A DNA stretch of 64,000 nucleotides from Puniceicoccaceae bacterium (lineage in GTDB: Bacteria; Verrucomicrobiota; Verrucomicrobiia; Opitutales; Coraliomargaritaceae). Below are positions 4,686 to 22,400 of the stretch, one piece after another (position 1 is the first letter of the stretch; each line of letters begins with the position of its first letter). The stretch spans positions 124,001 to 188,000 of the forward strand of contig JAGYJE010000003.1 in the NCBI GenBank assembly GCA_018402305.1, in the 5' to 3' direction. The notes under the pieces were generated by a model. That model did not search any database and was not told the origin of the DNA. It saw nothing but the letters and a program-made list of their open reading frames with translations. Made by a program: the position numbers and the translations under genes.

Positions 4686-4689
4686 CTAT

Positions 4690-5210: not shown

Positions 5211-6278
5211 ATGAACACTGAAACACTCGATACGACCGCAGGCACCGCTGGGCGCCGCATGTTTCCAAAAACTTTCCCTTCCGCCGTCGGCCTGTTGGCA
5301 GCGGGGCTTTTGGCGCCGTCGCTGGCGTCGGCCCAGCTGTTTAGCGACGTCCCGGGTCTTTCGACGGCGGGGCAGAACGCGCTTGTCACGCACTTCGACG
5401 CACGCGTCGGGGTGTCCGTCAATGGAACCGGCGGGGTGACGGCCTGGGAGGGGCGTGATGGCAACGGGAACGTTGTCGTGACGGCGAATCGTTCTGGGAA
5501 CAACGGTTTCAATACCGCTAACAACGTTCAGGATGAGTCGGATTCGAACAACAACATCACTCACAACGCCTCAAAGGGCAGCCTGACGTTTACCGAAAAC
5601 AACGTCTACGAAACGGCTCACCTCTACACTGAGATGGACGGGTTGCTCTCGGGAGGCGCTGTCACTATTTTCTGGAAGGGTTTCTACAGCGGCAGCAACC
5701 CGCAGGGCAATGGAACCCTGGGCCGCTATGCGTATAATCTTACAGCTGGTGAAATTGATGAGCTCAACGGTGGCATGAATCACCAGCGCCGCAATGCTGC
5801 GGAGAACGTCGGTGGTTTTTTTTCACTTGCAGATGGGACAAGCGGCGAAACCGAACTGGGTGATAGCATTAGTGACCAAAACGATGTCTCCACGGTTTAT
5901 CGCTCCGTCTACGATATGGGTGCGACAAGCGCCACAGTCGATTTTTTTGGGAATGGAACCGACCTGAACATCTCCAGTCCAGGCAACGGAACTATTTTTG
6001 GCTCAACTGCACAGCCGAACCTCTATATTGGGACTTTCAGCTTCCCCGTTTGGTATGATACGGCAAGCAACCAGCCGTCCGCCAGCACAAATGGCGGTTT
6101 TTCCTTCATCGGCGAAATGGAGCAGCTCATTATCTTTGAGGGCACGCTCAGCCCTTCAGACATTTCGGCGGTGGAGAGTTATCTCAGCGCCATCCCCGAG
6201 CCCGGCTCAGCGGGGCTTTGGATCAGCATCGCCGCGGTGGTTTGGACTGCATTGGGACGTCGTCGTCTGGCAAAATAA
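5211..6278 (+). CDS. Secreted PEP-CTERM protein with the GVTAWEGRDG module
   Basis: Exported 355-residue protein, probably anchored or sorted at the envelope by its C-terminal PEP-CTERM signal: AIPEPG, a hydrophobic segment WISIAAVVWTAL, then GRRRLAK. The N-terminus carries a signal-like hydrophobic stretch ending LAPSLASA near residue 40. The whole mature part is a module also found in the two other large secreted proteins of this operon: VPGLSTAGQNALVTHFDARV, GGVTAWEGRDGNGN, FYSGSNPQGNGTLGRYAY, GMNHQRR, and GGFSFIGEMEQLIIFEGTLS. The last piece and overall pattern resemble LamG/concanavalin A-like jelly-roll domains, so binding of a carbohydrate or other surface ligand is plausible. It is the first gene of the operon, 2 bases before the next start. 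No enzymatic motif was seen. Confidence 0.85.
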   Translation: MNTETLDTTAGTAGRRMFPKTFPSAVGLLAAGLLAPSLASAQLFSDVPGLSTAGQNALVTHFDARVGVSVNGTGGVTAWEGRDGNGNVVVTANRSGNNGFNTANNVQDESDSNNNITHNASKGSLTFTENNVYETAHLYTEMDGLLSGGAVTIFWKGFYSGSNPQGNGTLGRYAYNLTAGEIDELNGGMNHQRRNAAENVGGFFSLADGTSGETELGDSISDQNDVSTVYRSVYDMGATSATVDFFGNGTDLNISSPGNGTIFGSTAQPNLYIGTFSFPVWYDTASNQPSASTNGGFSFIGEMEQLIIFEGTLSPSDISAVESYLSAIPEPGSAGLWISIAAVVWTALGRRRLAK

Positions 6279-6280
6279 GT

Positions 6281-9200
6281 ATGGGTTTATATTCTAAACT
6301 TGCAGCGCTCCCTCCTTGCGGGGGGGAGCGTCTTTTTTGTTTACGGGGTCGGCTCCGGCGGCTTGGGCTGGGCGTCCTTTGTCTGGTGCCCGCTCTGGCC
6401 GGGGCGGCAGAGTCGATCTTCGCGGGGCTACCGGATCTCTCCGATGCGGCGCGCTCTCAGCTGCTGATCGCCTTCGACGCGCGCACGGGCGTGGCGACGG
6501 ATGCGGACGGCGGTGTGACGGCCTGGGAGGGCCGGGACGGAGCGGGCAATACCCTGCTCACCGCAGAGCGCCTGGGGCAGGGGCCAGCCGGGAATATCAC
6601 GCGGGTGGCGGGCGACTCGCGCCTGCGCTTCACAGAGTCGGCCGTTTCGGAGAGCTCCTTTCTTTATGCCGACCTTCAAGAGCTGCCGCAGTTCAGCGGT
6701 GGTCGCTTCACGATCTTTTGGCAAGGTTTCTACAGCGGGGCGAACCCGCAGGCAGATGGGACACTCGGGCGCTACGCCTTCAACATCGGGATTCGCGGTC
6801 CCGGCGACGACAGCGGTCAGGCTCGGGGGATGAGCCACCAGCGCCGCGACGCGGGCCAGGTGGTGGGGGTGTTTCCCGGCTCGGGCCGCACCTACCGCGG
6901 CGAATCCATCGCGGCCTTCAACGACACGCCGACGGTTTGGACGACCGTCTTCGACTACGTAGGGGATCAGCCCTACGGCCAACACTTTTTCTCGGCGGTG
7001 TCGGCGGACGGCAGTCGCAGTGAGCTCGGGGTGGCGCAGCCCGACGCGCCGACGGTTGAGTATCAGCGTTACCCAGGGCATCTTTACCTTGGTGCCTGGA
7101 ACGACGGCGTCAGCTCCTCGGCGGGGAGCGGCGGGTTTTCCTTTATCGGAGAGATGGGTGCTTTACTCATCTTTGAGGGGCTCCTCAGTCCGGCGGACAC
7201 CGCACGGGTCGAGGCCTGGCTGGCCGGGCGCAGCGCAACGGTGACGGAAGCGGAGCGTCCGGAGCCCGTGGGCCTCTGGGAGTTCAGTGATGGCGCGCAG
7301 CCACTCGCCGCCACCCGGGGCGCGGATTTGACGGCTCTGGGCGCGACGCCCCCGCAGGCAGCGGGCGTGACCGACAGTTGGAGTCTGTATCCCTTGAGCG
7401 AAACGGGTGTCATCCAGGGCCTTCCCGGCAGCGGCGAGGGGCTACGGGTGGCCAACCCCATCGGTGCCAACGGCGGCGGCGCACGAACGAATCAATACAC
7501 CCTCGTCTTCGACCTCCTGGCGACGCCCGACCGAATCTGGCGGGCGCTCTTCCGGACGGACGAATCCGCCTTCGACGGAGACATTTACCAGCTCAGTGAG
7601 GCGGGCGATCTGCTGGGGACGGCCCGTATCGGCTGGTCCCGCTCGCTCTTTCAGCGGGGGAGTTGGCAGCGCGTGGCCATTACCGTGGATGCCGATGAGG
7701 CGGACCGGATCACGGCCTACGTCGATGGCCACCTCGCGGGCATTCAAAGCGCCGGTGGGCGGGATTCCCGCTGGAGTCTGAACCCGCAAAACTTCGATCT
7801 CTTTGCCCATCCCGAAGGGCTCAACGGCAGCGTTTACGTGAGCGCGGTGGCCGTCTATGACCGCCCCTTGACGGCCTATGAGGTGGCGCAGCTGGGAGGG
7901 CCGGGCGCGCGCTTGTTGGCACCGGCGGTCGAAGGCGTGTTGCCGGTAGCGGCGGCCTCCGGTCCGGTGCCGAGTTCGGCCGTGGCGGGTGAGCCCGTCG
8001 AAGTGAGTGCGTCCGCGCTTGCCTTCGAAGCGGCCTCCGTGCAGCTGCAAATTGACTGGGGCGACGGGATGCGGAGCGCCTGGAGTCCAATGCAAGCGCC
8101 GGAGACGGCGGTCGATTTCGACCACGTTTATGTCGGTGCCACGGACCACACCATTCGGGCCCGCGCGCGGGACCGCGACGGACGCCTGTCCGGCTGGACG
8201 CCGCTCGGGACGATTGCGGTTCGGCACGAGCCGACGCCCCCCAACGCAGGCTTCGTCCGCGCGATTACCTACAACGTGTGGAGTGGTTTCAGCGGCATGG
8301 AGACCGTCAATCTCGCCGCCGGGTGGCTGCGGGCGCAAAACCCCGACATCGTATCTTTGCAGGAGCTGCCCGGCATCAGCGAAGACGAGCTGGCCACGCT
8401 GGCGTTGGCCTGGGGGCATCCCCATGCCATGAAAAACGGCGGGGTGGGTATCACCTCGCGCTATCCCATCACCGATCGGAAGATCCATGCCGATGGCTAC
8501 ACCCGCCGGGTGGTGCACGGGCGCACCGGCGGCTTCGACGTCTTCGCCTTTCACAAGGTATTTGGCGACTGGCGCGATGTGTTGGCGGATGCCGAGCGTA
8601 TCCAGCCGATCATCCAAGCCGCGATCGACGACGGGCGCCCGGTCATTGCGCTCGGGGATTTCAACGCCAACAGCCGGGACGACCGCGACTATCTCGACAA
8701 CCAAGCCCCCTTGATCGCGGCCCTGCCCAGCTTCCGCATCGATGGCGACCGCTTCGTTTACGACATCATGGACCGCTTCTTTGAAGCGGGTCTGGTCGAC
8801 GCCACGACCACGCCCGCCCCGGAAAACAGCACCTTTCCCTCGCTCATTCGCCCGACCCACCGCCCGGAGGCTTATCGGGATTCGGTTTCCTACCGGATCG
8901 ACTACGTTCTCGTCGATGCGGCCACGGCTGGCCAGACCGCGATCCATTATCCCAAGGACCCCATCCTGCAGCGCACCTCCGACCACCTACCCGTGATCGG
9001 CGACATCCTCCGCGCGGATGCGGTCTTCCCGGCGGACTATCTGTCCTGGAACGAGGATTTTCCCGAGCTTCAGCTGCGTCATCCCCAGTCGGACCCCGAC
9101 GGCGACGGCATCATCAATCTCTTTGAATACATCCTCGGCGGCGATCCAATGCAGCCCGGCACCGCTCAGGCACCTCGCCTCGCAGGCATAGACAGCGCGG

Positions 9201-9466
9201 AAGGTTCAGAATTTGTTTTCGTCCGCCGTCAGGCGTCTGCGGCGCACAGCGAGCAACGCATTCAGGTCAGCCGCGACCTCGAAGAATGGAGCGATCACAG
9301 CGTGCCGGCGACCGCTTCCGGGCCGTTCACCATCACCGAACTGCCCGACCGGCCCGGTTACGAGGAAGTCTGCTTCGCGGTGCCCGCAGGCTACGAGGCA
9401 CGGCTCTTCGCGCGCTTGCAAATTTCAGGTTCCTGGCTGAGTGCCGCTTACATCCCGGTTGAATGA
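6281..9466 (+). CDS. Secreted LamG-like / endonuclease-exonuclease-phosphatase (EEP) fusion protein
   Basis: Large exported protein of 1061 residues. Start at 6281 (MGLYSKLAAL) is 2 bases after the previous stop; a signal segment ends ALAGAAE. Domains in order: the operon-specific module (about 45-315, with GGVTAWEGRDGAGN and GMSHQRRDAGQ), a LamG-like domain (about 330-540), a PKD-like stretch with QIDWGDGMRS (about 575-650), an EEP hydrolase domain (about 659-910) and a tail with the calcium-type motif DPDGDGIINLFEY near 945. The EEP domain shows RAITYNVWSG, SLQELPG, ALGDFNANSRDDRDY, YRIDYVLVD and TSDHLPVIGD, matching the metal-binding Asn/Glu, Asp/Asn and terminal Asp-His residues. EEP enzymes cut phosphodiesters (nucleases, sphingomyelinases, phosphoinositide phosphatases). 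In this operon, a phosphonate ester is an attractive substrate, but that is inference. Confidence 0.85.
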   Translation: MGLYSKLAALPPCGGERLFCLRGRLRRLGLGVLCLVPALAGAAESIFAGLPDLSDAARSQLLIAFDARTGVATDADGGVTAWEGRDGAGNTLLTAERLGQGPAGNITRVAGDSRLRFTESAVSESSFLYADLQELPQFSGGRFTIFWQGFYSGANPQADGTLGRYAFNIGIRGPGDDSGQARGMSHQRRDAGQVVGVFPGSGRTYRGESIAAFNDTPTVWTTVFDYVGDQPYGQHFFSAVSADGSRSELGVAQPDAPTVEYQRYPGHLYLGAWNDGVSSSAGSGGFSFIGEMGALLIFEGLLSPADTARVEAWLAGRSATVTEAERPEPVGLWEFSDGAQPLAATRGADLTALGATPPQAAGVTDSWSLYPLSETGVIQGLPGSGEGLRVANPIGANGGGARTNQYTLVFDLLATPDRIWRALFRTDESAFDGDIYQLSEAGDLLGTARIGWSRSLFQRGSWQRVAITVDADEADRITAYVDGHLAGIQSAGGRDSRWSLNPQNFDLFAHPEGLNGSVYVSAVAVYDRPLTAYEVAQLGGPGARLLAPAVEGVLPVAAASGPVPSSAVAGEPVEVSASALAFEAASVQLQIDWGDGMRSAWSPMQAPETAVDFDHVYVGATDHTIRARARDRDGRLSGWTPLGTIAVRHEPTPPNAGFVRAITYNVWSGFSGMETVNLAAGWLRAQNPDIVSLQELPGISEDELATLALAWGHPHAMKNGGVGITSRYPITDRKIHADGYTRRVVHGRTGGFDVFAFHKVFGDWRDVLADAERIQPIIQAAIDDGRPVIALGDFNANSRDDRDYLDNQAPLIAALPSFRIDGDRFVYDIMDRFFEAGLVDATTTPAPENSTFPSLIRPTHRPEAYRDSVSYRIDYVLVDAATAGQTAIHYPKDPILQRTSDHLPVIGDILRADAVFPADYLSWNEDFPELQLRHPQSDPDGDGIINLFEYILGGDPMQPGTAQAPRLAGIDSAEGSEFVFVRRQASAAHSEQRIQVSRDLEEWSDHSVPATASGPFTITELPDRPGYEEVCFAVPAGYEARLFARLQISGSWLSAAYIPVE

Positions 9467-11172
9467 ACGTCGTCTCATCAAAACGTCGCTACTTTCCCAG
9501 AAGTGTCCCGCCGACACCGGTCGCCAGGGCGGGGGTCCAGCCGCTGATGGTATTCCGCGCCAAGGTCCACACCATGGACCCAGCGATGCCTATGGCAGAG
9601 GCCTTTTGTCTGCGCGACGGCCGCTTCACCGCAGTCGGCAGCAACGCCGAGATGTTGCTCCAGCACGAAGATGACATGATGGTGATCGACGCCCGCGGGC
9701 AGACCATCGTGCCGGGCTTCATTGATGCGCACATGCATCCCGACCCCACCTATCCGGCGGAGTCCCCGCACTGCATCCTCGACCTCGGGCCGGATCAGGT
9801 GACGAGTCGCGAGGCCCTGATCGAAGTATTGAGTGCCAAGGCAGCTCAGACGCCACCGGGAGAGTGGATCCGCGGCTTCCGTTACAACGACCGCCTGCTC
9901 GGGGGGCACCCCACGCGCGAGCTTCTCGACCGCGTCAGTCGGGAGCATCCCATTCTGTTGACGCACTCCAGCTACCATGTCTTCGCGGTCAACAGCTACG
10001 CTCTGGGAAAAGCAGGCATCGCCGCGCCCGAGCGCGACCCCCAGGGCGGGCGTTTTGATCGTGAGCCGGACGGTCATCCCAATGGCGTGCTGCGCGAGCC
10101 CGCCTGCCGCGACCGCGTGCTGCGCGGGAACGTGCCCTTCCCGAGTGCTTCCCCGGCCGAGGAATCCGCGGCCTACCGCTGCACCTTCGACCGCTTCGCC
10201 GCGCGGGGCATCACCAGTCTGGCCGATGCCGCCTACGAGGTGGGCAAACACGAGCTCTACGAGCGCTTGGCCAAAGACGGCGGTCTCCCCCTGCGGATCA
10301 ACTGCATGTTTCGGGAGGCGACCCTCGACTCCAAGATCGCCCAGGGCGAAGCGACCGGCGACGGCGACGAATTTCTAAAACTCGGCGCCATGAAAGTTTT
10401 TCACGGGAATTCTCTGACGGGGCACACCTGTTGGTTGTCCGAGCCCTACGCAGACCGGGAGGGCTACTTCGGCATGCCCCCCGAGCGCAGTCAGGAGGCA
10501 CTCGATGCGCTCATCCTGCGCGCGCACCGCGCCGGCTTCCAAATCGCCGTGCATGCCAACGGAGACCGCGAGATCGCCATGGTGGTGGCGGCCTTCGAGG
10601 CCGCGCTGGCGGCAGCGCCCCGCGCGAACCACCGCCACCGCATCGAGCACGCCAGCGTGATGACCGCGCTGCTCCTTCGCCGAATTCGGGAACTCGAACT
10701 CGTCCTGGCCCCGCATTCCTACCTCTACGAGCACGGCGAAGCGATGGAGCCCTATGGGGAAGCCCGCTACCCGTGGCTGCACCCGAATCGCAAAGCGCTC
10801 GATGCCGGCATCGTAGTGGCGGGAAACTCCGACTACCCGATCAGCGCGGCGGACCCGCTCCTGCGCATGAAAAGTTTGACCACCCGGCGCTCGGCGGCCG
10901 GCACGGTCTATGGCCCCGACGAGAGTTTGACGAATCAAGAGGCCCTGCGCGCCTTCACACTCGATGCCGCCTATGCGCAGTTTGAGGAGGACCGCAAGGG
11001 CTCCATTACGGCGGGCAAGCTGGCTGACTTCGTGGTTCTCTCGGAGGACCCGCTGACCTGTCTGCCCGAGCAACTCGATCAAATCCAGGTGCTGAGCACC
11101 TTCGTCGGCGGGCGGCAAGTCCACCCGAAAAAGCCCACCAATCCACACGATTCCTTCAGTTTATGCTCATAA
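9463..11172 (+). CDS. YtcJ-like metal-dependent amidohydrolase
   Basis: Predicted 569-residue hydrolase of the amidohydrolase superfamily (Amidohydro_3/YtcJ group), acting on an amide or similar bond of unknown substrate. Visible motifs are the metal-binding GFIDAHMHP near residue 90, GAMKVFHGNSLTG (position of the bridging lysine), FQIAVHANGDREIA near 363, HRIEHASVM near 393 and VAGNSDYPIS near 456; the C-terminus GSITAGKLADFVVLSEDPL is the usual composite-domain ending. Its start overlaps the EEP gene stop in an ATGA arrangement and its end overlaps the next gene by 10 bases, so it is translationally coupled in the phosphonate operon. The N-terminal 25 residues are non-conserved and not a convincing signal peptide. 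A role in deacylating an N-acylated AEP is possible but unproven. Confidence 0.85.
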   Translation: MNVVSSKRRYFPRSVPPTPVARAGVQPLMVFRAKVHTMDPAMPMAEAFCLRDGRFTAVGSNAEMLLQHEDDMMVIDARGQTIVPGFIDAHMHPDPTYPAESPHCILDLGPDQVTSREALIEVLSAKAAQTPPGEWIRGFRYNDRLLGGHPTRELLDRVSREHPILLTHSSYHVFAVNSYALGKAGIAAPERDPQGGRFDREPDGHPNGVLREPACRDRVLRGNVPFPSASPAEESAAYRCTFDRFAARGITSLADAAYEVGKHELYERLAKDGGLPLRINCMFREATLDSKIAQGEATGDGDEFLKLGAMKVFHGNSLTGHTCWLSEPYADREGYFGMPPERSQEALDALILRAHRAGFQIAVHANGDREIAMVVAAFEAALAAAPRANHRHRIEHASVMTALLLRRIRELELVLAPHSYLYEHGEAMEPYGEARYPWLHPNRKALDAGIVVAGNSDYPISAADPLLRMKSLTTRRSAAGTVYGPDESLTNQEALRAFTLDAAYAQFEEDRKGSITAGKLADFVVLSEDPLTCLPEQLDQIQVLSTFVGGRQVHPKKPTNPHDSFSLCS

Positions 11173-11909
11173 ATCCCACACCCTACCGCCTCGCCGTTTT
11201 CGACATGGCGGGCACCACGGTCACCGACCGGCACGAAGTCGAGGCCGCCTTCAAAAAGGCCTGCCTTGCTTCAGGGCTGGCCGACGTTTCGGATGCCCGC
11301 ATCCGTGCCCTGCAAGGCTACTCGAAAAAAGCGGTCTTCCGGCTCCTTTGGAGCGAGCGGCACAAAGACGAGGCCGAGGCCGTCGAATCCGCGGCGACCA
11401 CTTCCTACGAGTGCTTCAAAGAAGTGCTTGAAGCGCACTATGCGGCGCACCCGGTCACCCCGACCGAGGGGGCCGAGGCCTGCTTTGCCTTTCTTCGGGA
11501 CCGGGGCATTCAGATCGCGCTAACGACCGGATTTTACCGCCGCGTGACCGACCTCTTGCTCGATCAGTTGGGTTGGTTGGACGGCCTGGATGAGCGCCGC
11601 ATCGGGACCGGTGAAGACCGCATCATCGACTTCTCGGTGAGCGGCGAGGAAGTGCCCGAAGGGCGGCCCGCGCCCGACATGATTTTTCGCTCCATGGCGG
11701 TGCTCGGTGTCGAGGATGCGGCTCAGGTGCTCAACTTCGGCGACACGCCCGTGGATATCCAGTCCGGCCGCAACGCCGCCTGTGGACAGGTCATCGCCCT
11801 GACCAACGGGACGCACACCCGCGAGGAGCTGGAAGGGAAGGGGGCGGATGTGCTGCTTCCCACCCTGGCCGATTTCCCCGCGCTCTTTAAAACCTGGGAG
11901 TCCGCATGA
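11163..11909 (+). CDS. Phosphonatase-like HAD hydrolase
   Basis: HAD-superfamily enzyme of 248 residues in the phosphonatase-like group. Motif I is FDMAGTTV at residues 13-20, where PhnX has DxAGTT; motif II is ALTTGFYRR near 120; motif III/IV are GRPAPDMIF and LNFGDTPVDIQSG. In canonical PhnX a lysine in an MGLxK-type segment of the cap forms the Schiff base with phosphonoacetaldehyde. Here the equivalent LQGYSKKAVF keeps a lysine, but the nearby Met and His of PhnX appear replaced, by eye alignment. It sits between the amidohydrolase (10-base overlap) and the substrate-binding lipoprotein (4-base overlap). With PhnW in the same operon, cleavage of phosphonoacetaldehyde to acetaldehyde and phosphate is the expected role, though the family member could have a related substrate. 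Confidence 0.85.
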   Translation: MLINPTPYRLAVFDMAGTTVTDRHEVEAAFKKACLASGLADVSDARIRALQGYSKKAVFRLLWSERHKDEAEAVESAATTSYECFKEVLEAHYAAHPVTPTEGAEACFAFLRDRGIQIALTTGFYRRVTDLLLDQLGWLDGLDERRIGTGEDRIIDFSVSGEEVPEGRPAPDMIFRSMAVLGVEDAAQVLNFGDTPVDIQSGRNAACGQVIALTNGTHTREELEGKGADVLLPTLADFPALFKTWESA

Positions 11910-12952
11910 AGCATGCATCGATCCAACCACCCCGGGCTGCCGCCCGCCTTGCCGTGCTCGGTCTGCTCACCGCCCTCGCGCTCCTGCTGAGCGGTTGCGG
12001 GGGCGGGGATGACCGTGAGTCAATCGTTGTCTACACGGCCCTTGAGCCCGATGAATGGCCGCGGATGATTGAGAAATTCAACGAACACCACCCCGACGTC
12101 GAGGTCCGGGTGCTGCGCGACTCGACTGAGATCATCGCCTCCCGCTTTCTCAACGAGCGGAACAATCCTCAGGCCGATGTCATCTGGGGCCTGGCGCTCT
12201 CCCGGGTGGCTTTCTTCAAATCCGAGGGGCTGTTGGCACCACTCGGTGGGGTCGATACCAGCCACCTGCGGGCGCGCTTTTTGGACCCCGAGGCGACGCC
12301 CTACTGGGCGGGCCTGAGCGTGTGGATGAGCGCGATCATCGTCAACGCCATCGAGCTCGAAGGGCAGGGTCTGGCGATGCCGCATTCCATGGCCGATCTG
12401 ATTCGCCCCGAATACAAGGGCAAAATCGCCATGCCGGATCCCAACTCCTCGGGCACTGGCTACATGTTTGTCAATGCCATCCTCCAGCAAATGGGCGAGG
12501 CGGACGGGTGGGCCCATCTGGAGGCGCTCGATCGGAACATCCTGCGCTACACCCACTCCGGTGCCCGGCCCACCAGCATGGCGGCGCGGGGCGAAGTGCC
12601 GATCGGGCTTTCCTTCGGTGCCTGGGGCTTCCGGCACGTCGCGGCCGGGGACCCGGTGAAAGTCATCTTCCCCGCCGAGGGCTCCGGCTGGGATATGAAC
12701 TCGGTCGCCCTCGTGCAAAAGGATACTATTCAGCCCGGTGCGAGGAAGTTTCTTGAATGGACGCTCACGCAGGAGGCCATGGAGCACTACGCGAAGACCT
12801 ATCCCGTGGTGGCCGACCAGCGCGTGACCGAGATTCCCAACGGCTACCCCGAGGATCCCGAAGCGCAAATGATCGAAAACGACTTCACCTGGCTGGGCGC
12901 AAACAAAGACCGGATCCTCGACACCTTTCGAACACGCCTGTCCGCCGACTAG
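11906..12952 (+). CDS. ABC transporter substrate-binding lipoprotein, AEP type
   Basis: Envelope lipoprotein of 348 residues that would capture the phosphonate for import. The signal peptide ends in a lipobox LLSGC with Cys31. The body starts SIVVYTALEPDEWPRMIEKF and includes NPQADVIWGLALS and PNSSGTGYMFVNAILQQMG, typical of the iron(III)/2-aminoethylphosphonate (PhnS-like) periplasmic-binding group. It overlaps the HAD gene by 4 bases and is followed 11 bases later by the ATPase. The substrate is inferred from the neighbouring AEP transaminase; by sequence alone the family also includes ferric-ion binders. Confidence 0.85.
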   Translation: MKHASIQPPRAAARLAVLGLLTALALLLSGCGGGDDRESIVVYTALEPDEWPRMIEKFNEHHPDVEVRVLRDSTEIIASRFLNERNNPQADVIWGLALSRVAFFKSEGLLAPLGGVDTSHLRARFLDPEATPYWAGLSVWMSAIIVNAIELEGQGLAMPHSMADLIRPEYKGKIAMPDPNSSGTGYMFVNAILQQMGEADGWAHLEALDRNILRYTHSGARPTSMAARGEVPIGLSFGAWGFRHVAAGDPVKVIFPAEGSGWDMNSVALVQKDTIQPGARKFLEWTLTQEAMEHYAKTYPVVADQRVTEIPNGYPEDPEAQMIENDFTWLGANKDRILDTFRTRLSAD

Positions 12953-12963
12953 TTCCGCACCGC

Positions 12964-14061
12964 ATGAAACTGGAATCCGGCAGCGACGGCATCACTCTAG
13001 CGGAGGTCTCCAAGTCCTTCGGGTCGACGCGTGTTTTGGAGGATCTGGACCTGGTTTTTCCGAAGGGCGATTTCTGCACCCTGCTCGGGCCCTCCGGTTG
13101 CGGGAAGACGACGCTGCTGCGCCTCATCGCCGGTCTCGAAAATCTGGATACGGGGCGGATCGCGTTTTTTGGCCGCGACGTCAGTCGGCTACCGGTGGCC
13201 CAGCGCAACTGCTCCATCCTTTTCCAGTCCTACGCGCTCTTCCCCAATCTAACGGTGGCGGCCAACGTCGGCTACGGCCTGCGGGCACGAGGCGTCCCGC
13301 GGGCCGAAGCGCATAAAAAAGTGGGCGACCTGCTTGCGCTGGTGGGGCTGGGTGGCTACGAGCAGCGCTTGCCGGCGCAGCTCTCGGGCGGTCAACAGCA
13401 ACGGGTGGCCCTGGCCCGGGCGCTGGCTGTGGAGCCCGAGGTGCTGCTCCTCGACGAGCCCTTTTCCGCCCTCGACGCCCAGGTCCGGCTCCACCTGCGC
13501 ACAGAAGTTCGACGGCTGCAAAAGCGCCTCGGCGTGACCACCGTGATGGTGACCCACGATCAGGATGAAGCGCTCTCGGTCTCCGACCGGATTTTTCTGC
13601 TGCTCGACGGCCGGGTGCGCCAAAGCGGCAGCCCGCAGGAAATCTACGAGCACCCCGTCGATGCCTTTGCCGCCGACTTTATCGGCACGGCTAACTGGCT
13701 GCGCGGCTGGCACCCTTGCGCGGACGGGCGCTTCACCAAGGGCGACCACTCGCTACGGGTGGCAACTCCGGAGGCCGTCCCTGAAGGCCCTGTGGCGCTG
13801 ATGGTCCGGCCCGAGTCCTTTCGAATCGTGAAGGCAGGCGAGGAAAGCGGGGAGGGGCTACCCGCCCAAATAGAATTGATCGAATACCGCGGCGCAACCG
13901 AGCGGGTGGTGGCCCGAATCGACGGTGCCGACGCGGATGACGGCGACGGCGGTGAGGTGCAGATCGACCGGGCGCAGTCCGATGAAGTCATTGCCGTGGG
14001 CGACCGCGTGCGCCTGATTCCCGACCCCGCGAGCATCCGTATTTTTTCCGAGCAAAGATGA
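12964..14061 (+). CDS. ABC transporter ATP-binding protein, AEP type
   Basis: Cytoplasmic ATPase of 365 residues powering the importer. Walker A LGPSGCGKTT is at 41-50, the signature LSGGQQQRVALARAL starts near 140, Walker B is VLLLDEPFSALDA, and the switch histidine is in MVTHDQDEA. The C-terminal region from about residue 280 (VALMVRPESFRIVK) is a TOBE-type domain as in PhnT/PotA-like ATPases. The ATG at 12964 was chosen because sequence upstream overlaps the binding-protein gene; the next gene overlaps its end by 4 bases. Confidence 0.9.
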   Translation: MKLESGSDGITLAEVSKSFGSTRVLEDLDLVFPKGDFCTLLGPSGCGKTTLLRLIAGLENLDTGRIAFFGRDVSRLPVAQRNCSILFQSYALFPNLTVAANVGYGLRARGVPRAEAHKKVGDLLALVGLGGYEQRLPAQLSGGQQQRVALARALAVEPEVLLLDEPFSALDAQVRLHLRTEVRRLQKRLGVTTVMVTHDQDEALSVSDRIFLLLDGRVRQSGSPQEIYEHPVDAFAADFIGTANWLRGWHPCADGRFTKGDHSLRVATPEAVPEGPVALMVRPESFRIVKAGEESGEGLPAQIELIEYRGATERVVARIDGADADDGDGGEVQIDRAQSDEVIAVGDRVRLIPDPASIRIFSEQR

Positions 14062-15848
14062 GCGAGCGTGGACAGAGAGGGTTGTTGTGGGACCGCGGCG
14101 AGCGTATCGAGGCCAGCGTGCTGTGGGTGCTCTTCGCGTTCATGGGCATTTTCCTGCTCCTGCCGCTCTTCGTCCTGCTCCTGCAGGGGTTCTTCAGTCC
14201 GCAGGATGGTGCCTGGACGGGGTTTTCGCAGCATGTGCAAATGCTCTCGGATCCCCGCATGCTGGGGATTTTGCTCAACTCGTTGGGAGTGGCGCTCGTC
14301 TCGGCCCTGCTTTCAACCAGCGCGGCCTTTTTGTTCGCCTATGGACTCGGGCGCACGCAGATGGCGGGGATTCGGTTCTTTCGCTACATCGCCATGCTTC
14401 CGCTCTACGCGCCGACCATGCTGTTCGGCATCTCCGTGATTGTTCTCTTCGGCTCGCAGGGGCTCCTGAGCAGCGGGGTGCTGCCGGGCCTGCCCACTTT
14501 CGATGCGCCGACCCACGGGCCGGTGGGGATCATTGCCGCCCTATCGCTCTTTTGCCTGCCGCCCGCGCTGATCATTCTCACGAGTGCCATGCGCCAGTCC
14601 GACGCCCGCCTCTACGAGGCCTCCGAGAGCCTGGGTGCCGGGCCCGTGCGCACCTTTTTCGCTGTGACCCTGCCGACTTTGAAATTCGGTTTGATCAGCG
14701 CGTTCTCGTTGACCTTCATTTTGGCCTTCACCGATGTGGGCATTCCGCTGCTCCTGCCCTCGCGTGATTTCACGCTGCTCTCGGTCGAGATCTACCAGCA
14801 GGTGGTCAATCGCAACAACAACGCCATGGGGGCGACCATCGCGCTGGTCCTGCTCATGCCCGCCTTTCTCGCCTTCGGTGCGGACCAGTTGGCCAAGCGG
14901 CGGCAGCACGCCGCGCTCTCGGCCAAGGCCGTGCCCTACCGCGCCAAGCCCAACCCGCTCCGCGACCGCTTGTATTTCATCTTCTGCGCCGGCCTCTCCA
15001 CCCTTCTCATCGTCTTCATTCTGACCCCCGCCTTCGTCGTCTTTGTCGATACCTGGCCCGCCTCGCTCTTCAACCGCGAGCAGCTCGCGGCCTTTCGCGG
15101 GGTCGAGCCCTCGGAGGTCAAAATGTTCAGCCTGCGGCACTTTTCGGCAGGGGGCACCGGGCAGGCCGGATCGCCTTATCAGACCAGCCTGTGGATGGCT
15201 CTGGGCACCTCCCTGATCGGCACGGTGCTGGTCTTCTGCACCGCCTGGGTGGTGGAGCGCTCCCAGCGGCTGCCGCAAATGAGGCGCGGGCTGCAACTAC
15301 TCGCGACCCTGCCACCGGCCGTGCCGGGTCTCATCCTCGGCTTGGGCTACCTGCTCTTTTTTGTCCAACGGGAGGTGTTCGGCCTGCCCAACCCCTTGCA
15401 TGCCTTGCACGGCACGCTGCTGCTTTTGATCCTGTGCAATCTGGTCCATTATTTCGGGATCGGCTATCTCACCGTGACCACGGCCCTGCGCCAGATTGAT
15501 CGGGAGTTTGAAACCGTCTCGCGGGCCCTGGGGGCATCGCGCGGCACGCTCATCCGCCGGGTCATTCTCCCCGTGCTTGCACCCACCCTGGCGGAGGTCG
15601 CGCTCTTCTTTTTTGTCAGCACGATGGCCGGGGTCTCCGCCATGCTCTTTCTGCGGACCCCCGAGTTCACCCCGGCCACGGTCGCCATCATCAGCCTGGA
15701 GCACGAGGGCCAAACCCAGGCCGCGGCTGTTTTTGCCCTGCTCATCGTGCTGACGAATATCGCCGCCCGTCTGCTCTACGATCTGGTCGTGCGGGCGACC
15801 GCTGCGCTCCGCCTGCAGTCGCGCGAGGGCGTCCCTGCGCCCGCCTGA
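14058..15848 (+). CDS. ABC transporter permease, two fused permease domains, AEP type
   Basis: Inner-membrane permease of 596 residues with about twelve hydrophobic segments, equal to two MetI-like domains fused in one chain, as in the PhnU/PhnV-like and ferric-iron (FbpB) permeases. The two EAA-loop motifs are visible: EASESLGAGPVRTFFAVTLP near residue 187 and SRALGASRGTLIRRVILPVL near 489. Each is the docking site for one ATPase subunit. It overlaps the ATPase gene in an ATGA junction. The following gene starts 46 bases later, the longest gap inside the operon except at the ends. Confidence 0.9.
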   Translation: MSERGQRGLLWDRGERIEASVLWVLFAFMGIFLLLPLFVLLLQGFFSPQDGAWTGFSQHVQMLSDPRMLGILLNSLGVALVSALLSTSAAFLFAYGLGRTQMAGIRFFRYIAMLPLYAPTMLFGISVIVLFGSQGLLSSGVLPGLPTFDAPTHGPVGIIAALSLFCLPPALIILTSAMRQSDARLYEASESLGAGPVRTFFAVTLPTLKFGLISAFSLTFILAFTDVGIPLLLPSRDFTLLSVEIYQQVVNRNNNAMGATIALVLLMPAFLAFGADQLAKRRQHAALSAKAVPYRAKPNPLRDRLYFIFCAGLSTLLIVFILTPAFVVFVDTWPASLFNREQLAAFRGVEPSEVKMFSLRHFSAGGTGQAGSPYQTSLWMALGTSLIGTVLVFCTAWVVERSQRLPQMRRGLQLLATLPPAVPGLILGLGYLLFFVQREVFGLPNPLHALHGTLLLLILCNLVHYFGIGYLTVTTALRQIDREFETVSRALGASRGTLIRRVILPVLAPTLAEVALFFFVSTMAGVSAMLFLRTPEFTPATVAIISLEHEGQTQAAAVFALLIVLTNIAARLLYDLVVRATAALRLQSREGVPAPA

Positions 15849-15894
15849 ACTCTTTCAACTCAAGGCAATCCGAACCCGAAACCAGGTTAAAACC

Positions 15895-18800
15895 ATGAAA
15901 GAACCACAAAAAAACCGCCGCGCTATCTTGCTGAAAAGCGCGCGTTTCGCTCTGCTCGGCCTCGGCTCCCTCGCTCTGTCTGTATCCCCGCTGCAGGCGG
16001 CGCTCTTTGATGATGTGCCGGGTCTCTCGCAAGCGGGCCGCGATGCGCTGCGCATTCACTTCGATGCGGGCGTGGGTGTGTCACTTGACGGGAACGGCGG
16101 GGTAACGGCTTGGGAGGGCCGCGACGGCAGCGGGAATCCGGTTTACACCGCGCAGGCCCAAGGCAGCGGCCCCTCGACCAATATCAGTGTAAACGCGGCA
16201 GGCGATGCGCTCGTCTTCACCGAATCGCAGGTCGCCGACACCCGCTTTCTTTACACGGACCTGTATGCTATTGACGACAAATTGATCTCCAGTGGCGAGG
16301 TCACCGTCTTTTGGCTCGGGTCCTACAGCGCAGGCACCCCACAGGGCGATGGCACCCTTGGGCGCTATGCCTACAACATCGGGATCCGCGGTCCCGGCGT
16401 CTCCGGGCAAGCCCGTGGGATGAGCCACCAGCGGCGCGATGCCGGCCAGGTCGTGGCGGTCTTTCCCGGGTCGGGTGTGACCTATCGGGGGGATTCCATT
16501 CTCACCCGCAACGATACGCCGACGGTTTGGCGCACGGATTACGACTACGTGGGCGGGAGCCCCTTTGGCACGCATGCCTTCTTTGCGACAGACGACGAGG
16601 GCACGCGCACCGATCTGGGTATGGCACCCCTGACGGCCACAACGATCGAGTTTACCAGCTTCGATCCGCACCTCTACATCGGCGCATGGAATGACGGGGT
16701 GGTTAGCTCGTCGGGCTCTGGAGGCTTCACCTTTATCGGAGAAATGTCGCAGCTCCTGATCTTCGAGGGCGATCTCGACCCCGCCGATATTGACGCGATT
16801 GAGGCTTGGTTAGTGAGTCAGGCCGAGCAGGTGGAGGCACCGCTAACCGACTTTGCCTGGACTGGATCGGTGGACGATCAGTGGGATGCCACGAGCTTGA
16901 ATTGGACGGAGCAGGCCAGCGCGGCCGCTTGGGGGAGTGATGGGCAGGGCCAGCAGGCCATCTTTGGCGCGGTGGCCGAGCGAAACCCCTCCATCGCGGG
17001 CAACATCACGGCGGAGGCGCTGCGCTTCGACGCGGCGGGCTATACCGTGGACGGCCCGGGAACACTGGCACTCGCTGGCGAGAGAACTGTGGACACCATC
17101 GCCGATGCCACCATCGCCGCCGAGCTAGTGGGCAACTCCGGTCTCACAAAAAACGGTGACGGCCAGCTAACACTCACCGGGGCCAACAGCTACACCGAAA
17201 GCACGGTCATCAACGCGGGCGAGCTTCTTTACACCGGATCCGGTTCGAGCAGCGGAGCGGGGACCCTGATCCTGGCACCGCTGGCCGACCAACGGGCGGG
17301 ACTCGTCGTCGATACCAGCGAGTCGCTCAGTTTTGGCGGTGCCTCCCTGATCGGGGCAGGCGAAAATGCCGCCGGGTTCATTCGACTGGTCAACGGCACA
17401 CTCACCACCAACGGACCGACCAGTCGAAGTTTCCTGGAGATCGGTGGTGGGATTCCGGGTAACGGGTCCTATGGTGCCTTTTTAGTCGAGGGCGGACGTT
17501 ATGTGTCCGATCTCGGGGATACCACCTCAGGCGTGCGTGTCGGCAACGACGGGCTCGGCTACCTCCGCCAGACCGGCGGCGAAATCTTCAGCGCTGGATT
17601 TTTTGGGATCGGCGGCTTCGGGGAAAGCAGCGGTGAGGGCGTGGTGGACCTGCTGGGAGGGGAGCTCGAAATTGCTCCCGAGCTTCGTCTCCAAATCGGA
17701 TTCCGCGCGGGGGCCGTGGGCACACTGAACCTCGGCACGCAGGCCGGGGGTAACGCCACGATCCGCCACCTGAATGAGGGTGGCTTCGCGGTGGCGGGAA
17801 ATTCCGCGACGGATCGCGCCACCCTCAACCTGAACAGTGGACGCCTCATTTTGGGCGGACCCCTTTTCCGCGCCGGCAGCACAGCTGGTTCGGTCGTCAA
17901 TTTCAATGGCGGCACCCTCGTGGCTGGATTGGATGCTGTTCAACTAACCGATGACAGCCTCCCGGTAATTCGCCTCTACGCCGGCGGACTGACGGTCGAT
18001 ACGGCTGGGCTGACGGCCACCTTGGGGGATGATTTGACCACGCCCGCAGGCGAGGGGATTTACCCCAGCGGCGGGACGATTGCCGTCGCCGACGGCGGCT
18101 CGGGCTACCTCGGCGCACCGCTGGTCACCGTGACCAGCAGCGGTCTCGGGAATGCGGCCACCGCGACGGCTGAGATGGTCGACGGGCGCATCAACGCCAT
18201 CGTGATGACCGCTCCGGGGCAGGAATTCAGCGACGGCGACATCGTGACCTTCAGCTTTCGCGGCGGTGGTCCCGAAGTGTCGGCGCCGGACTTTAATTAC
18301 ACACTAACCAGCGCTGACCTCGCGCCGAACGACCAGGGCGGGCTCACCGTCGATGGGGGGGGCCGCCTGGTGCTTTCCGGCAATGCCGATTATGCCGGAC
18401 CCACGCAAGTGCTCTCGGGGACCCTGCAAAGCGACGCGCTTCTGGGTGCCACCACCGTGACGGTGGCGGCGGCCGGCGAGTTGACCGGTGCTTTTGACAC
18501 GTACGGCGATGTCGTGATCGAGGGTGCACTCGCTCCGGGGAATGGAGTCGGTCTCGGCCGTGGCCTCGGCGACCTAGAGTTTCGCCCCGGTTCCCACTAC
18601 GAATTTCAGATCAGAGATTGGCTTGGTTTTGCCGGCGTTGGTTTCGACTCGACCGAATTTGACGCCACCGTGATCACCGCGACGTCGGCCGAACCGTTGA
18701 CTATTGTGGTGGCGCCCGTCGGCCTCTCCAACTTTAGCGAGAGCAATCGTGATTTCGTGCTGGTGGATTCTTTCGAAGTCTCGGGCTTGGCGGCCGACAA

Positions 18801-19308
18801 CTGGACGGTTGATGCCAGTCAGTTCTCCGGCACCGGAACGTGGGCGTTGGCCGCTGAGGATGGACGCTTGATCCTGCGATACACGGCGGGCGCTGGCACG
18901 GCCTATTCCAACTGGGCCGCATCCTTTTCGGAATTGACGGACACTGCGCCCGGCGCCGATCCGGACGGTGACGGCCTCTCCAATCTGCTGGAATTTGTCT
19001 TCCGTCGCGACCCCACGCAGCCGAGCGACAGTGCGCTGACCGAGGCGACGCTCAACGAAGCCGGTGCCTTTGTCTTCACCTTCGTGCGCCGCAGCGATTC
19101 GAGTGCGTCAACGACGCAGATCTTCGAATATGGAAGCGACCTTGCGAGCTGGACCTCCTTGCCCATCCCCGCCGCCAGCGAGGGAGCAGTGGTCATCGAG
19201 TCCGGCGTGCCAGAATCCGGAGCAGAGACGGTGCAAATCACCATCCCTGCTCAGGACCCACCTCAAACCCGCATGTTCGGTCGCCTCCGCGTCGAATTCA
19301 CCAACTAA
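15895..19308 (+). CDS. Secreted protein: GVTAWEGRDG module plus autotransporter-associated beta-strand repeats
   Basis: Exported 1137-residue protein. After a signal segment ending SVSPLQAA (about residue 38) comes the operon-specific module (about 40-305) with DVPGLSQAGRDALRIHFDAG, GGVTAWEGRDGSGN, GTLGRYAYNIGIRGPG and GMSHQRRDAGQVV. The middle is beta-strand rich with an autotransporter-associated (PATR) repeat, GLTKNGDGQLTLTGANSYTE near 420, and a second, PNDQGGLTVDGGGRLVLSG, near 815. The C-terminal part has a calcium-type motif DPDGDGLSNLLEFVF near 1025 and the F-type strand region seen in other verrucomicrobial exoproteins. No autotransporter barrel is visible. It lies between the permease and transaminase genes, 3 bases before the latter, so its expression is tied to AEP use. 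A surface adhesin or scaffold is plausible. Confidence 0.85.
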   Translation: MKEPQKNRRAILLKSARFALLGLGSLALSVSPLQAALFDDVPGLSQAGRDALRIHFDAGVGVSLDGNGGVTAWEGRDGSGNPVYTAQAQGSGPSTNISVNAAGDALVFTESQVADTRFLYTDLYAIDDKLISSGEVTVFWLGSYSAGTPQGDGTLGRYAYNIGIRGPGVSGQARGMSHQRRDAGQVVAVFPGSGVTYRGDSILTRNDTPTVWRTDYDYVGGSPFGTHAFFATDDEGTRTDLGMAPLTATTIEFTSFDPHLYIGAWNDGVVSSSGSGGFTFIGEMSQLLIFEGDLDPADIDAIEAWLVSQAEQVEAPLTDFAWTGSVDDQWDATSLNWTEQASAAAWGSDGQGQQAIFGAVAERNPSIAGNITAEALRFDAAGYTVDGPGTLALAGERTVDTIADATIAAELVGNSGLTKNGDGQLTLTGANSYTESTVINAGELLYTGSGSSSGAGTLILAPLADQRAGLVVDTSESLSFGGASLIGAGENAAGFIRLVNGTLTTNGPTSRSFLEIGGGIPGNGSYGAFLVEGGRYVSDLGDTTSGVRVGNDGLGYLRQTGGEIFSAGFFGIGGFGESSGEGVVDLLGGELEIAPELRLQIGFRAGAVGTLNLGTQAGGNATIRHLNEGGFAVAGNSATDRATLNLNSGRLILGGPLFRAGSTAGSVVNFNGGTLVAGLDAVQLTDDSLPVIRLYAGGLTVDTAGLTATLGDDLTTPAGEGIYPSGGTIAVADGGSGYLGAPLVTVTSSGLGNAATATAEMVDGRINAIVMTAPGQEFSDGDIVTFSFRGGGPEVSAPDFNYTLTSADLAPNDQGGLTVDGGGRLVLSGNADYAGPTQVLSGTLQSDALLGATTVTVAAAGELTGAFDTYGDVVIEGALAPGNGVGLGRGLGDLEFRPGSHYEFQIRDWLGFAGVGFDSTEFDATVITATSAEPLTIVVAPVGLSNFSESNRDFVLVDSFEVSGLAADNWTVDASQFSGTGTWALAAEDGRLILRYTAGAGTAYSNWAASFSELTDTAPGADPDGDGLSNLLEFVFRRDPTQPSDSALTEATLNEAGAFVFTFVRRSDSSASTTQIFEYGSDLASWTSLPIPAASEGAVVIESGVPESGAETVQITIPAQDPPQTRMFGRLRVEFTN

Positions 19309-19311
19309 ACT

Positions 19312-20421
19312 ATGGATAATCCCTACCTTCTCCTCACCCCCGGACCACTCTCCACTTCGCCCACTGTGCGCGACGCCATGCTGCGCGACTGGTGCACCTG
19401 GGACGATGATTACAACCTCGGCGTCGTCACCCCGATTCGCGAAAAGCTGGTCGCCCTGGCCAGCGCGGAGCGGCCGGAGGACTACACCTGCGTTCTCATG
19501 CAGGGAAGCGGCAGTTTCGCCGTCGAGTCGATGATTGGATCGGTCGTGCCACCAGGCGGACGTTTGCTCGTGCTCGCGAATGGCGAATACGGCAACCGCC
19601 TGGCCCGCATCGCCCGAATGGCGGGGATCGATACAACGGTCCACGACAGCGGCGAGTTGGTCCCGCCGGATCTCGGCTTGCTCGAGCAACGCCTGACTGA
19701 CGAGCCGGACCTCTCGCACGTCGTTTGCGTGCACAACGAAACCACCACCGGAATGCTCAACCCCCTCGCCGGGATCGCCCGGATTGTCAAAGCGCAGCAG
19801 CGTATCTTCATGGTCGATTCGATGAGCGCCTTTGGGGGCATCCCCCTCGATATGGCCGCGCTGGAGATCGACTTTCTCGTCTCCTCGGCCAACAAGTGTA
19901 TTCAGGGCGTGCCCGGTTTCGGATTCGTTCTGGCCAAGCGCTCCGAATTGGCCGCGTGCGCGGGCTATGCCCGCTCGCATTCGCTCGATCTTTACGACCA
20001 ATGGAAGGTCATGGAGGCGGGTAAGGGTAAGTGGCGATTCACCTCGCCCACGCACACCGTGCGGGCCTTTTTGCAAGCCTTGAAGGAACTCGACGAAGAG
20101 GGCGGGGTGGCAGCGAGACACGCCCGCTATGTGGAAAACCAGCGCCGTCTCGTTGCCGGGATGGAGTCGCTGGGCTACCGCTGCCTGCTGCCAAAAGCCC
20201 TGCACAGCCCCATCATTACCGGCTTTTACGAGCCCGAGGGTGCCTTTGCCTTCAAGCCCTTTTACGACGCGCTCAAGCAACGGGGTTTTGTCATTTACCC
20301 CGGAAAAGTCACCCAGATCGCCTCTTTCCGTATCGGTACCATTGGCCATGTTTTCCCCGAAGACATTGACCGCCTGCTGGATGCCATCGCCGACTGTGGG
20401 AGTCATTCCCAGGGTGGGTGA
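19312..20421 (+). CDS. phnW: 2-aminoethylphosphonate--pyruvate transaminase PhnW
   Basis: PLP enzyme of 369 residues that converts AEP and pyruvate to phosphonoacetaldehyde and alanine, the first step of the phosphonatase pathway. The N-terminus [20 protein letters not shown] and the segment [15 protein letters not shown] are characteristic, as is the PLP-lysine motif [20 protein letters not shown] with the lysine near residue 195. Length matches the family. It is the last structural gene of the operon, directly behind the beta-strand-repeat protein. A related alanine-glyoxylate aminotransferase is less likely given the [11 protein letters not shown] motif and the neighbours. Confidence 0.95.
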
Positions 20422-20432
20422 AGGCGGGTTGA

Positions 20433-20460
20433 TTGACATGAACGCTTTATCAACTATAAC
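20433..20460 (+). promoter_or_regulatory. Sigma70-type promoter for the LacI-family regulator
   Basis: TTGACA at 20433-20438 and TATAAC at 20455-20460 are separated by 16 bases, a near-consensus pair. It lies just after the phnW stop and 22-46 bases before the regulator start, so the regulator can be made independently of the operon. Confidence 0.6.
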
Positions 20461-20481
20461 GGTTTGTCTTCTTGACGAAGG

Positions 20482-21570
20482 GTGGGTAATCACTTGGATA
20501 AGCAAATGTTTCAAAAAACACCTACCCAGCAGGAAATTGCGGAAAAGCTCGGCGTTTCTCCGACCACCCTTTCGTTGACATTGAAGGACCCGGATACGAC
20601 GCGGGTTTCGGAGTCGCGCCGCAGGCAAATATTGGATTTTGTCCGAGAACACGCGCCCCGGCTTTACCCGACGAAAATCCGCTGTCGTATCAGCCTCTGC
20701 CTGCCCGAGATAGGGACCTATGCGGGTCCCGTCTATGGTGCCATCGTCGAGGGTGTGCAAAAAGCCTGTCGCGAGCGCGATTGGAGAGTCGATATCCGCA
20801 TGGGAGCGGGCGGTCAGAGCCGGGAAGAGATTTTGGGGGATTCACCGCCGGACGGTGTCATCGCGATTGTCGGTCGTTCACCGTTTGAGCCGCTGCAGGA
20901 GTTGTCGGAGTTCGTCCCGGTCATCCTCCTAAACGGTCGCGCCGGAGGCGAGGTCTGCGACACCCTCGATCTGGATAACGGCAGCGGCGTGCGGCAGCTT
21001 TTGAATGTGCTCCACCGTGAGGGGCATCGCCGTATCGCTTTTCTCTTCGACCACGAAACCGGAGAGGAATACCGGCACCACCTGCGCGACCGCGCTGAGA
21101 CTTTCTTTGGGGCTTTGCTTCTCCAGGGTGTGCCTTTCTCAAACGAGGACTTCATCAATGTGCGCGATTTGAGTGCTGCCCAAGCCGCGCCAGCCTACGA
21201 CGCCGCTTTGGCAAAGTTGCTGGCTCGGGAAGACCGGCCGACCGCCGTATTCTGCTTCAACGACTACTGTGCGGCCAATTTTATCAATGCGGTGCAGCGC
21301 GCCGGTCTGCGGGTGCCTGAAGACTTCAGTGTGACGGGTTACGACGACCACTCGCTCTCGCGGCAAACCGATCCCCAGATCACCACGGTTCGCCATGATC
21401 GTGAGCAAATGGGGGTCGAAGCGGTGGAAGCGCTGGCCCATCGCATCGCCCGCCCCGATTCGCCTCGCTTGATTCTTTCCCAGCCCGCGCAGCTTGTCCT
21501 CCGTGGTTCTCACGGAGCTCGGGCAGAAGTAGCGTTTAGCGACGTTTCGGCTGCGGGATCATCGAGGTAG
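20482..21570 (+). CDS. LacI-family transcriptional regulator
   Basis: DNA-binding regulator of about 362 residues. The helix-turn-helix TQQEIAEKLGVSPTTLSLTL is near the N-terminus, and the rest is a periplasmic-binding-protein-like sensor: YAGPVYGAIVEGVQKACRER, REGHRRIAFLFDHETGEEYR, TAVFCFNDYCAANF, FSVTGYDDHSLSRQTDPQIT. The frame begins at a GTG (20482); the ATG at 20506 (MFQKTPTQQ) is an equally good start and keeps the whole HTH. It follows phnW by 60 bases and reads the same way. It is the likely local controller of the AEP operon; a sugar-like ligand is usual for the family, so the effector here is unknown. Confidence 0.88.
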   Translation: MGNHLDKQMFQKTPTQQEIAEKLGVSPTTLSLTLKDPDTTRVSESRRRQILDFVREHAPRLYPTKIRCRISLCLPEIGTYAGPVYGAIVEGVQKACRERDWRVDIRMGAGGQSREEILGDSPPDGVIAIVGRSPFEPLQELSEFVPVILLNGRAGGEVCDTLDLDNGSGVRQLLNVLHREGHRRIAFLFDHETGEEYRHHLRDRAETFFGALLLQGVPFSNEDFINVRDLSAAQAAPAYDAALAKLLAREDRPTAVFCFNDYCAANFINAVQRAGLRVPEDFSVTGYDDHSLSRQTDPQITTVRHDREQMGVEAVEALAHRIARPDSPRLILSQPAQLVLRGSHGARAEVAFSDVSAAGSSR

Positions 21571-21640
21571 CTTTCAATCTACTGGCTGGCCATCCTAGAA
21601 ACGCCTTGACTAAACGTGCCATATGACGCAATATTACACC

Positions 21641-21862
21641 ATGAAAACTGCAAAAATATTTGCCAACGGCCGAAGCCGCGCGGTGCGAATCCCCGGCGAA
21701 TGGCTGAGAGGAGCCGACGAGGTGGAAATGCGCCGGGAAGGCGACTTAATTATATTGGCACCGATGCGACTCAGCCTCGGCGAGCTAGCGCAGGCCTATG
21801 CGAAAGAACCTGTCTTCCTCGAGCGCAAGGTTCAGACGACGACAGCACCGAAGCACCTTTGA
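21641..21862 (+). CDS. vapB: VapB-type antitoxin (AbrB fold)
   Basis: Antitoxin of 73 residues from the ATG at 21641. MKTAKIFANGRSRAVRIPGEW is the standard swapped-hairpin AbrB DNA-binding N-terminus, and the C-terminal part would wrap the toxin. An ATG six codons upstream (21623) is also in frame but leaves an atypical extension. The toxin gene starts 2 bases after this stop. Antitoxins of this type repress their own promoter; a TTGACT at 21606 may be the -35 box. Confidence 0.88.
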   Translation: MKTAKIFANGRSRAVRIPGEWLRGADEVEMRREGDLIILAPMRLSLGELAQAYAKEPVFLERKVQTTTAPKHL

Positions 21863-21864
21863 CC

Positions 21865-22242: not shown

Positions 22243-22400
22243 GTTTGAAAACTTCTGTACGATTGGAAGCAGAAGGGATTCAATCATAGTTTACAGCCCC
22301 CCTGCGGGGATTCTCCCTTTTCCCTTCCCACTCATTATTCTCAACGCGGAAGCTTCCCACTCCGACGGGATCCCAGAGACTTGGATCAATTGGTCACTTT

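Follow-up and report, generated by a model that had tools for sequence, protein, structure and literature searches.

An AEP operon encoding three exported proteins with a common N-terminal domain and a candidate phosphonate-releasing phosphoesterase

Why should an operon for the catabolism of aminoethylphosphonate (AEP), a natural phosphonate, encode exported proteins? Natural phosphonates are often part of glycans and lipids, according to the available portion of PMC8316502, and the available portions of PMC5649143 and PMC8931226 leave it unsettled how they are released from these macromolecules. The question is raised by a locus in a 64,000-nt stretch (the window; contig JAGYJE010000003.1, positions 124,001 to 188,000) from a Puniceicoccaceae bacterium, whose genome comprises 3.1 Mb in 76 contigs and is 90% complete (the contig is C23 in this analysis). 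Weighing the sequence evidence, we see an even chance that this AEP-catabolic locus has an extracellular stage of its own, acting on AEP-bearing glycans or lipids.

The operon consists of ten co-directional plus-strand genes (5211–21570) encoding, in order, the exported proteins A and B, a YtcJ-type amidohydrolase (C), a HAD hydrolase (D), a substrate-binding protein (E), an ABC ATPase (F), a fused ABC permease (G), the exported protein H, PhnW (I) and a LacI-type regulator (J). Neighboring genes range from a 10-nt overlap (C–D) to a 60-nt gap (I–J): B–C, D–E and F–G overlap by 4 nt each, and 2, 11, 46 and 3 nt separate A–B, E–F, G–H and H–I, respectively. The starts of B (6281) and F (12964) are our choice, as longer frames exist in the list of open reading frames. 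Open reading frames together with Pfam and NCBIfam profiles confirmed the genes, coordinates, order and tight or overlapping spacing given in the initial annotation. Its description of all three exoproteins as large fits B (1061 aa) and H (1137 aa), but not A (355 aa), and it overlooked an EEP domain in B, an N-terminal domain common to A, B and H, and a hairpin after A. The operon is bordered on its left by an M50 peptidase gene (4654–5106) that is apparently truncated, with just the final 60 of the 221 profile positions covered, and possibly represents an insertion scar; to the right (21616–23981) follow a PIN-domain gene and an AAA-ATPase_like/PDDEXK_9 gene.

The cytoplasmic part of the pathway is the most readily assigned. 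PhnW, the AEP–pyruvate transaminase (19312–20421), is the sole operon protein to pass its NCBIfam equivalog (TIGR02326; 532 vs. a cut-off of 400.8 bits). Among 14 genomes of the genus, the source genome alone has PhnW over this cut-off; the model also scores, below cut-off, in all 14 control genomes. For D (11163–11909), the best NCBIfam model is the PhnX-like TIGR03351 (183.7 bits, under the cut-off of 218.9), and the protein is not a canonical PhnX (TIGR01422; 88.3 vs. 220 bits). Alignment of D with PhnX places a Lys (LQGYSK vs. MGLLK) in the column of the Schiff-base Lys, while the His three residues on is not matched. The importer subunits E (11906–12952; PF13343, with a lipoprotein-like start as judged by eye), F (12964–14061) and G (14058–15848) have phnS2 (TIGR03261), PhnT2 (TIGR03265) and PhnU2 (TIGR03262) as their best models, each under the equivalog cut-off (355.5 vs. 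392.75, 402.6 vs. 457.7 and 494.8 vs. 593.25 bits, respectively). Because AEP-system models match these proteins best, albeit below their cut-offs, profile evidence renders the AEP route likely for the HAD enzyme and the three transporter subunits, in addition to being well supported for PhnW. As for the remaining non-exported proteins, C (9463–11172) matches Amidohydro_3 (PF07969; 320 bits) and is related to the solved structures 3icj and 3igh, both titled uncharacterized, and J (20482–21570) matches Peripla_BP_3 (PF13377; 114 bits), with the LacI helix-turn-helix model PF00356 below cut-off.

The exported proteins A (5211–6278), B (6281–9466) and H (15895–19308) begin with signal-like sequences, identified by eye, and have in common an N-terminal domain of ~280 residues that is pairwise 46–57% identical. 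This domain lacks a Pfam match, and a genome-wide search revealed three copies, all in this operon. The end of the domain is similar to LamG_3-like repeats found in another bacterium (hhalign 67%, E 5e-5, 78 columns; the same profile scored 0.1% against the EEP alignment as a control), and it may hence be a divergent lectin-like domain. A PDB profile search returned just two chance-level matches (E 0.2), and the AlphaFold2 model from a 4-row alignment was not usable (mean pLDDT 41). Beyond this domain, A has no Pfam or NCBIfam match, including for its tail (IPEP...RRR), which by eye is PEP-CTERM-like; the exosortase family occurs above cut-off twice in the genome. For H, Pfam reports PF12951 (PATR beta-strand repeats) alone, with neither the Autotransporter beta-domain PF03797 nor a recognized catalytic domain. 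In B, the shared domain precedes LamG_3-like and PKD-like modules (both Pfam matches below cut-off), an EEP phosphoesterase domain and a C-terminal domain.

The EEP domain (8240–9034) matches Exo_endo_phos (PF03372) at 58.6 bits vs. a cut-off of 24.5 (residues 664–904 of translation P0002). Alignment of B with four relatives revealed invariant Asn, Glu, His, GDFN and RID positions, presumably the catalytic ones. The nearest solved structures by profile are ExoIII-type nucleases (E 1.5e-13), with sphingomyelinase C trailing far behind (E 0.0069); this PDB search places the domain nearer in sequence to nucleases than to sphingomyelinase. At a position occupied by Tyr in the aligned ExoIII-type sequences, B has a His, as in the DNase I/sphingomyelinase pattern. 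Structure prediction from the single sequence reached a mean pLDDT of 36. Relatives of the domain occur in 12 of 288 genomes (source genome included), at 12 places other than the operon itself. Eight of these neighborhoods were read, none of which had a PhnW, PhnX-like or AEP-importer gene nearby (tblastn, E 1e-3); two relatives, both from one genus, are flanked by sulfatase genes. None of 126 stretches with the EEP pattern in viral contigs encodes a relative. An EEP domain that is phosphonate-specific in itself was accordingly rejected and, given that its relatives elsewhere are not beside phosphonate genes, the domain is best read as a recruited general module. The initial annotation had proposed that the exoproteins gather or break down a phosphonate-bearing polymer or lipid. 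This proposal gains from the phosphoesterase-superfamily domain of B, a candidate enzyme for liberating AEP bound in a larger ester, whose substrate and cutting activity we infer.

The exported proteins might instead act without processing any substrate. A and H, together with those parts of B that are not catalytic, could serve as adhesins on the cell surface or as matrix proteins whose expression is coordinated with AEP use, e.g. in attaching to particles or hosts rich in phosphonates. Such a role would suit the makeup of H, devoid of a recognized catalytic domain, and the reappearance of PATR-repeat, LamG and C-terminal modules elsewhere in the genome, in further proteins that look exported. 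We nonetheless consider it unlikely, as B carries an EEP domain with its presumed catalytic positions conserved and the shared N-terminal domain is confined, within the genome, to this operon.

A parallel locus on contig C1 of the same genome (about 172.7–201 kb; L064, L065) places modules of the H and B types next to phosphoesterases and a mannosidase. It encodes two homologues of the H body, an exported-looking Metallophos protein and a second Metallophos protein carrying H-body sequence; homology to the H body amounts to 50% identity over 820 aa, 33% over 822 aa and 43% over about 400 aa. Also encoded are an SSF symporter, a GH38 mannosidase and a Type I phosphodiesterase in which the LamG, PKD-like and C-terminal modules of B recur in a different order. 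Another GH38 gene lies at 154–156 kb of C1 (L077), some 16 kb off and with other genes between. As circumstantial evidence, the locus hints that this lineage tends to combine such exported bodies with phosphoester chemistry. The C1 locus is possibly a phosphoglycan utilization locus, a theme that would also fit the LacI-type regulator of the AEP operon and the sulfatase neighbors of the two EEP relatives.

The several exported-looking phosphoesterases on C1 could be invoked for a second alternative, as could the similarity of the EEP profile to ExoIII-type nucleases: B may be a secreted nuclease or general phosphodiesterase that scavenges phosphorus from DNA or other esters, the operon as a whole serving phosphorus starvation with AEP as one source. 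We regard this as improbable. The His replacing the ExoIII-type Tyr speaks against it, although the DNase I/sphingomyelinase pattern still allows a DNase I-like nuclease. A scan for Pho-box-like sites also speaks against it, returning three sites (1.67 expected) and none near the operon with an E. coli consensus that may not be this lineage's. A promoter-pattern scan gave two sites (2.8 expected), none upstream of A, and a search for inverted repeats in two regulatory stretches yielded one single 9-nt pair at 89% in one stretch and none in the other. A terminator-like hairpin (6305–6331) with a U-rich tail (6305–6340 in all, plus strand) directly follows A and falls in the initial codons of B. 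Since the terminator-pattern scan of the region was weak (25 sites vs. 17.0 expected from shuffles), the folding energy (–23.9 kcal/mol for 6295–6345, z –4.3) is the better evidence for this element. The hairpin is a possible attenuator: it might leave A as the product present in the largest amount and be opened whenever B is translated.

How far does the exoprotein module extend beyond this genome? Profile searches with the shared N-terminal domain gave no confident match in other genomes among 387 of the phylum and none at E 1e-10 in other genomes among 372 of the order (the two samples overlap), upon which a secreted family spread across the phylum was rejected. The sole further match in the phylum spans 44 residues (E 6.5e-4) of a protein with LamG_3-like repeats. 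Scanning 84,980 species with two short peptide patterns, by which relatives may be missed, uncovered one locus (L004), on a 12.9-kb contig of MAG JAGYLC010000060.1, titled Kiritimatiellae. Its gene order—YtcJ C-terminus, HAD enzyme, substrate-binding protein, ATPase, permease, H and PhnW—is that of the source operon, followed by a GH94-family gene on the opposite strand. The contig ends inside the YtcJ gene (62% identity over 56 aa), and a query with B retrieved H alone from this genome; A and B were thus seen in one genome, the source. H, an intact 1134-aa frame spaced 20 and 3 nt from the permease and PhnW genes, is 66.9% identical to its source counterpart, compared with 72.8–81.5% for the other five complete proteins (dS 1.31–2.37, i.e. 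near saturation; dN 0.13–0.26). As H is kept between permease and PhnW despite near-saturated synonymous sites, its position is more than chance. Within H, the N-terminal domain (78.9%) and residues 471–700 (80.4%) are conserved like the operon enzymes, whereas the rest of the mature protein shows 52–64% identity.

All four confident copies of the N-terminal domain, from two genomes, hence reside in AEP operons; rather than lying mostly away from phosphonate genes, the module was found beside them, on two loci only. This agrees with the initial annotation, which had tied the exoprotein module to phosphonate use, but the module is rare. PhnU2-type permeases at E 1e-80 or better were found in 12 of 387 phylum genomes (source included) and in none of 14 controls. 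All 11 loci other than our own were read (some end at a contig edge, the shortest being 6.4 kb), and tblastn detected PhnW in each of them and A, B, H or YtcJ in none; tblastn was used for these absence calls because the ORF caller masks genes in GC-rich loci. HAD enzymes scanned from four of these loci are canonical PhnX proteins (302–343 bits). TIGR03351 matches occur at nine places outside the source operon, and PhnW was present in none of the three neighborhoods read (four of the remaining six are in genomes whose PhnU2 locus had already been read). Taken together, the N-terminal domain and H look phosphonate-linked, on thin numbers. Inspection of the other AEP loci revealed yet other neighbors. 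Exported-looking proteins of 435–440 aa, without Pfam or NCBIfam match and at a guess perhaps porins, adjoin canonical PhnX–PhnW–ABC loci (L068:5225–6532 and L072:13726–15048), and an autotransporter with Chlam_PMP repeats is encoded ~500 bp downstream of one AEP operon (L068:12506–15649). In L066 (2321–3760), the permease and PhnW genes flank a class III aminotransferase gene, the location one would predict for a PbfA-like accessory enzyme; the name PbfA appears in the available portion of PMC8154272.

The GC content of the operon is 63–66% at 6–20 kb (window positions 6000–20400) vs. 48–58% in the flanks, other stretches of the source genome reaching up to 60–62%. Operon identity to L004 (67–82%) is far above that of EF-G (48%) and a DEAD-box helicase (49%) in the same genome pair, a comparison in which paralogy is possible. 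The L004 contig has a GC content of 62% vs. 54–56% in four other contigs of that MAG, with an ambiguous tetranucleotide profile, and either the cassette moved horizontally or this contig is misbinned. The exoprotein genes might have been carried along on a horizontally transferred segment without contributing to phosphonate use. Such a passenger status would accord with these figures and with the apparently truncated M50 gene next to the operon, but is improbable given that L004 retains an intact H gene between permease and PhnW with dN far below dS.

We therefore return to the extracellular release of AEP. Through the N-terminal domain and the beta-repeat body of H, A and H would keep an AEP-bearing macromolecule bound at the cell surface. 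A further copy of the domain would anchor B to this material, where the EEP metallo-phosphoesterase domain of B would cut the phosphonate ester, liberating AEP or a short AEP ester for the importer. Inside the cell, YtcJ might strip an N-acyl or similar amide substituent, PhnW would generate phosphonoacetaldehyde and the HAD enzyme would split its C–P bond to yield phosphate. The ligand of J is probably a sugar-like moiety, and this tips the balance somewhat toward a phosphonoglycan, over a phosphonolipid, as the source. This scheme is supported by the confinement of the N-terminal domain to AEP operons, the invariant positions of the EEP domain in B, the C1 locus, the sulfatase-flanked EEP relatives and the conservation of H in L004. 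It is weakened by resting on two loci, with A and B not seen in the L004 genome; by the 11 AEP loci without the module; by ExoIII-type nucleases being the nearest solved relatives by profile and EEP relatives elsewhere lying apart from phosphonate genes; by the lack of an outer-membrane transporter recognized by Pfam among the ten proteins; and by the known phosphonate monoester hydrolase (PEH) belonging to another family. A fuller version, in which the three exported proteins carry a new family of locus-specific binding domains that present an AEP glycan or AEP lipid to a phosphonate-ester hydrolase of the EEP fold, the same operon mineralizes the product and the cassette moves between distant bacteria, is more speculative and appears rather doubtful.

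How does this operon compare with known systems? The initial annotation likened it to a polysaccharide utilization locus (PUL). As in a PUL, a single operon would bring together binding and hydrolysis at the surface, import, catabolism inside the cell and a regulator. The likeness is one of analogy, as Pfam recognized no SusC/SusD-type, TonB-type or glycoside hydrolase family among the ten proteins, an ABC importer being present instead. With the EEP phosphoesterases DNase I, ExoIII and bacterial sphingomyelinase C, B shares the PF03372 domain and conserved positions, but its domain sits in a large multidomain exported protein encoded within a phosphonate operon. Our literature search, with most subscription journals outside its coverage, found no report of such an operon. 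Judging by the available portions of PMC8316502 and PMC8154272, the PhnW–PhnX pathway with its AepXVW/PhnS2T2U2-type importer has the same PhnW, phosphonatase-group HAD enzyme, PF13343 substrate-binding protein, ATPase and permease in one operon; here, the HAD enzyme is PhnX-like rather than canonical, and the operon additionally encodes YtcJ, three exported proteins and a LacI-type regulator. The operon is hence a variant of AEP operons rather than a new kind of system. What is new is the N-terminal domain common to A, B and H, without a Pfam match and with its genomic copies confined to the operon. By coupling AEP import and C–P cleavage to a secreted enzyme with a phosphoesterase fold and to proteins that likely bind the substrate, the operon offers a concrete, clonable candidate for the phosphonate-release step. 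For this step, alkaline-phosphatase-family enzymes have been postulated to release phosphonates from marine glycans (PMC5649143; drawn in a model in PMC8931226, each as far as available), and PEH, from a different family than the EEP domain of B, has been characterized as active on phosphonate monoesters (PMC5649143, available portion). The reaction proposed for B, hydrolysis of a phosphonate–glycan ester, would be the same, yet B has the EEP fold and a genetic link to AEP import and catabolism, and the missing release chemistry may be in B.
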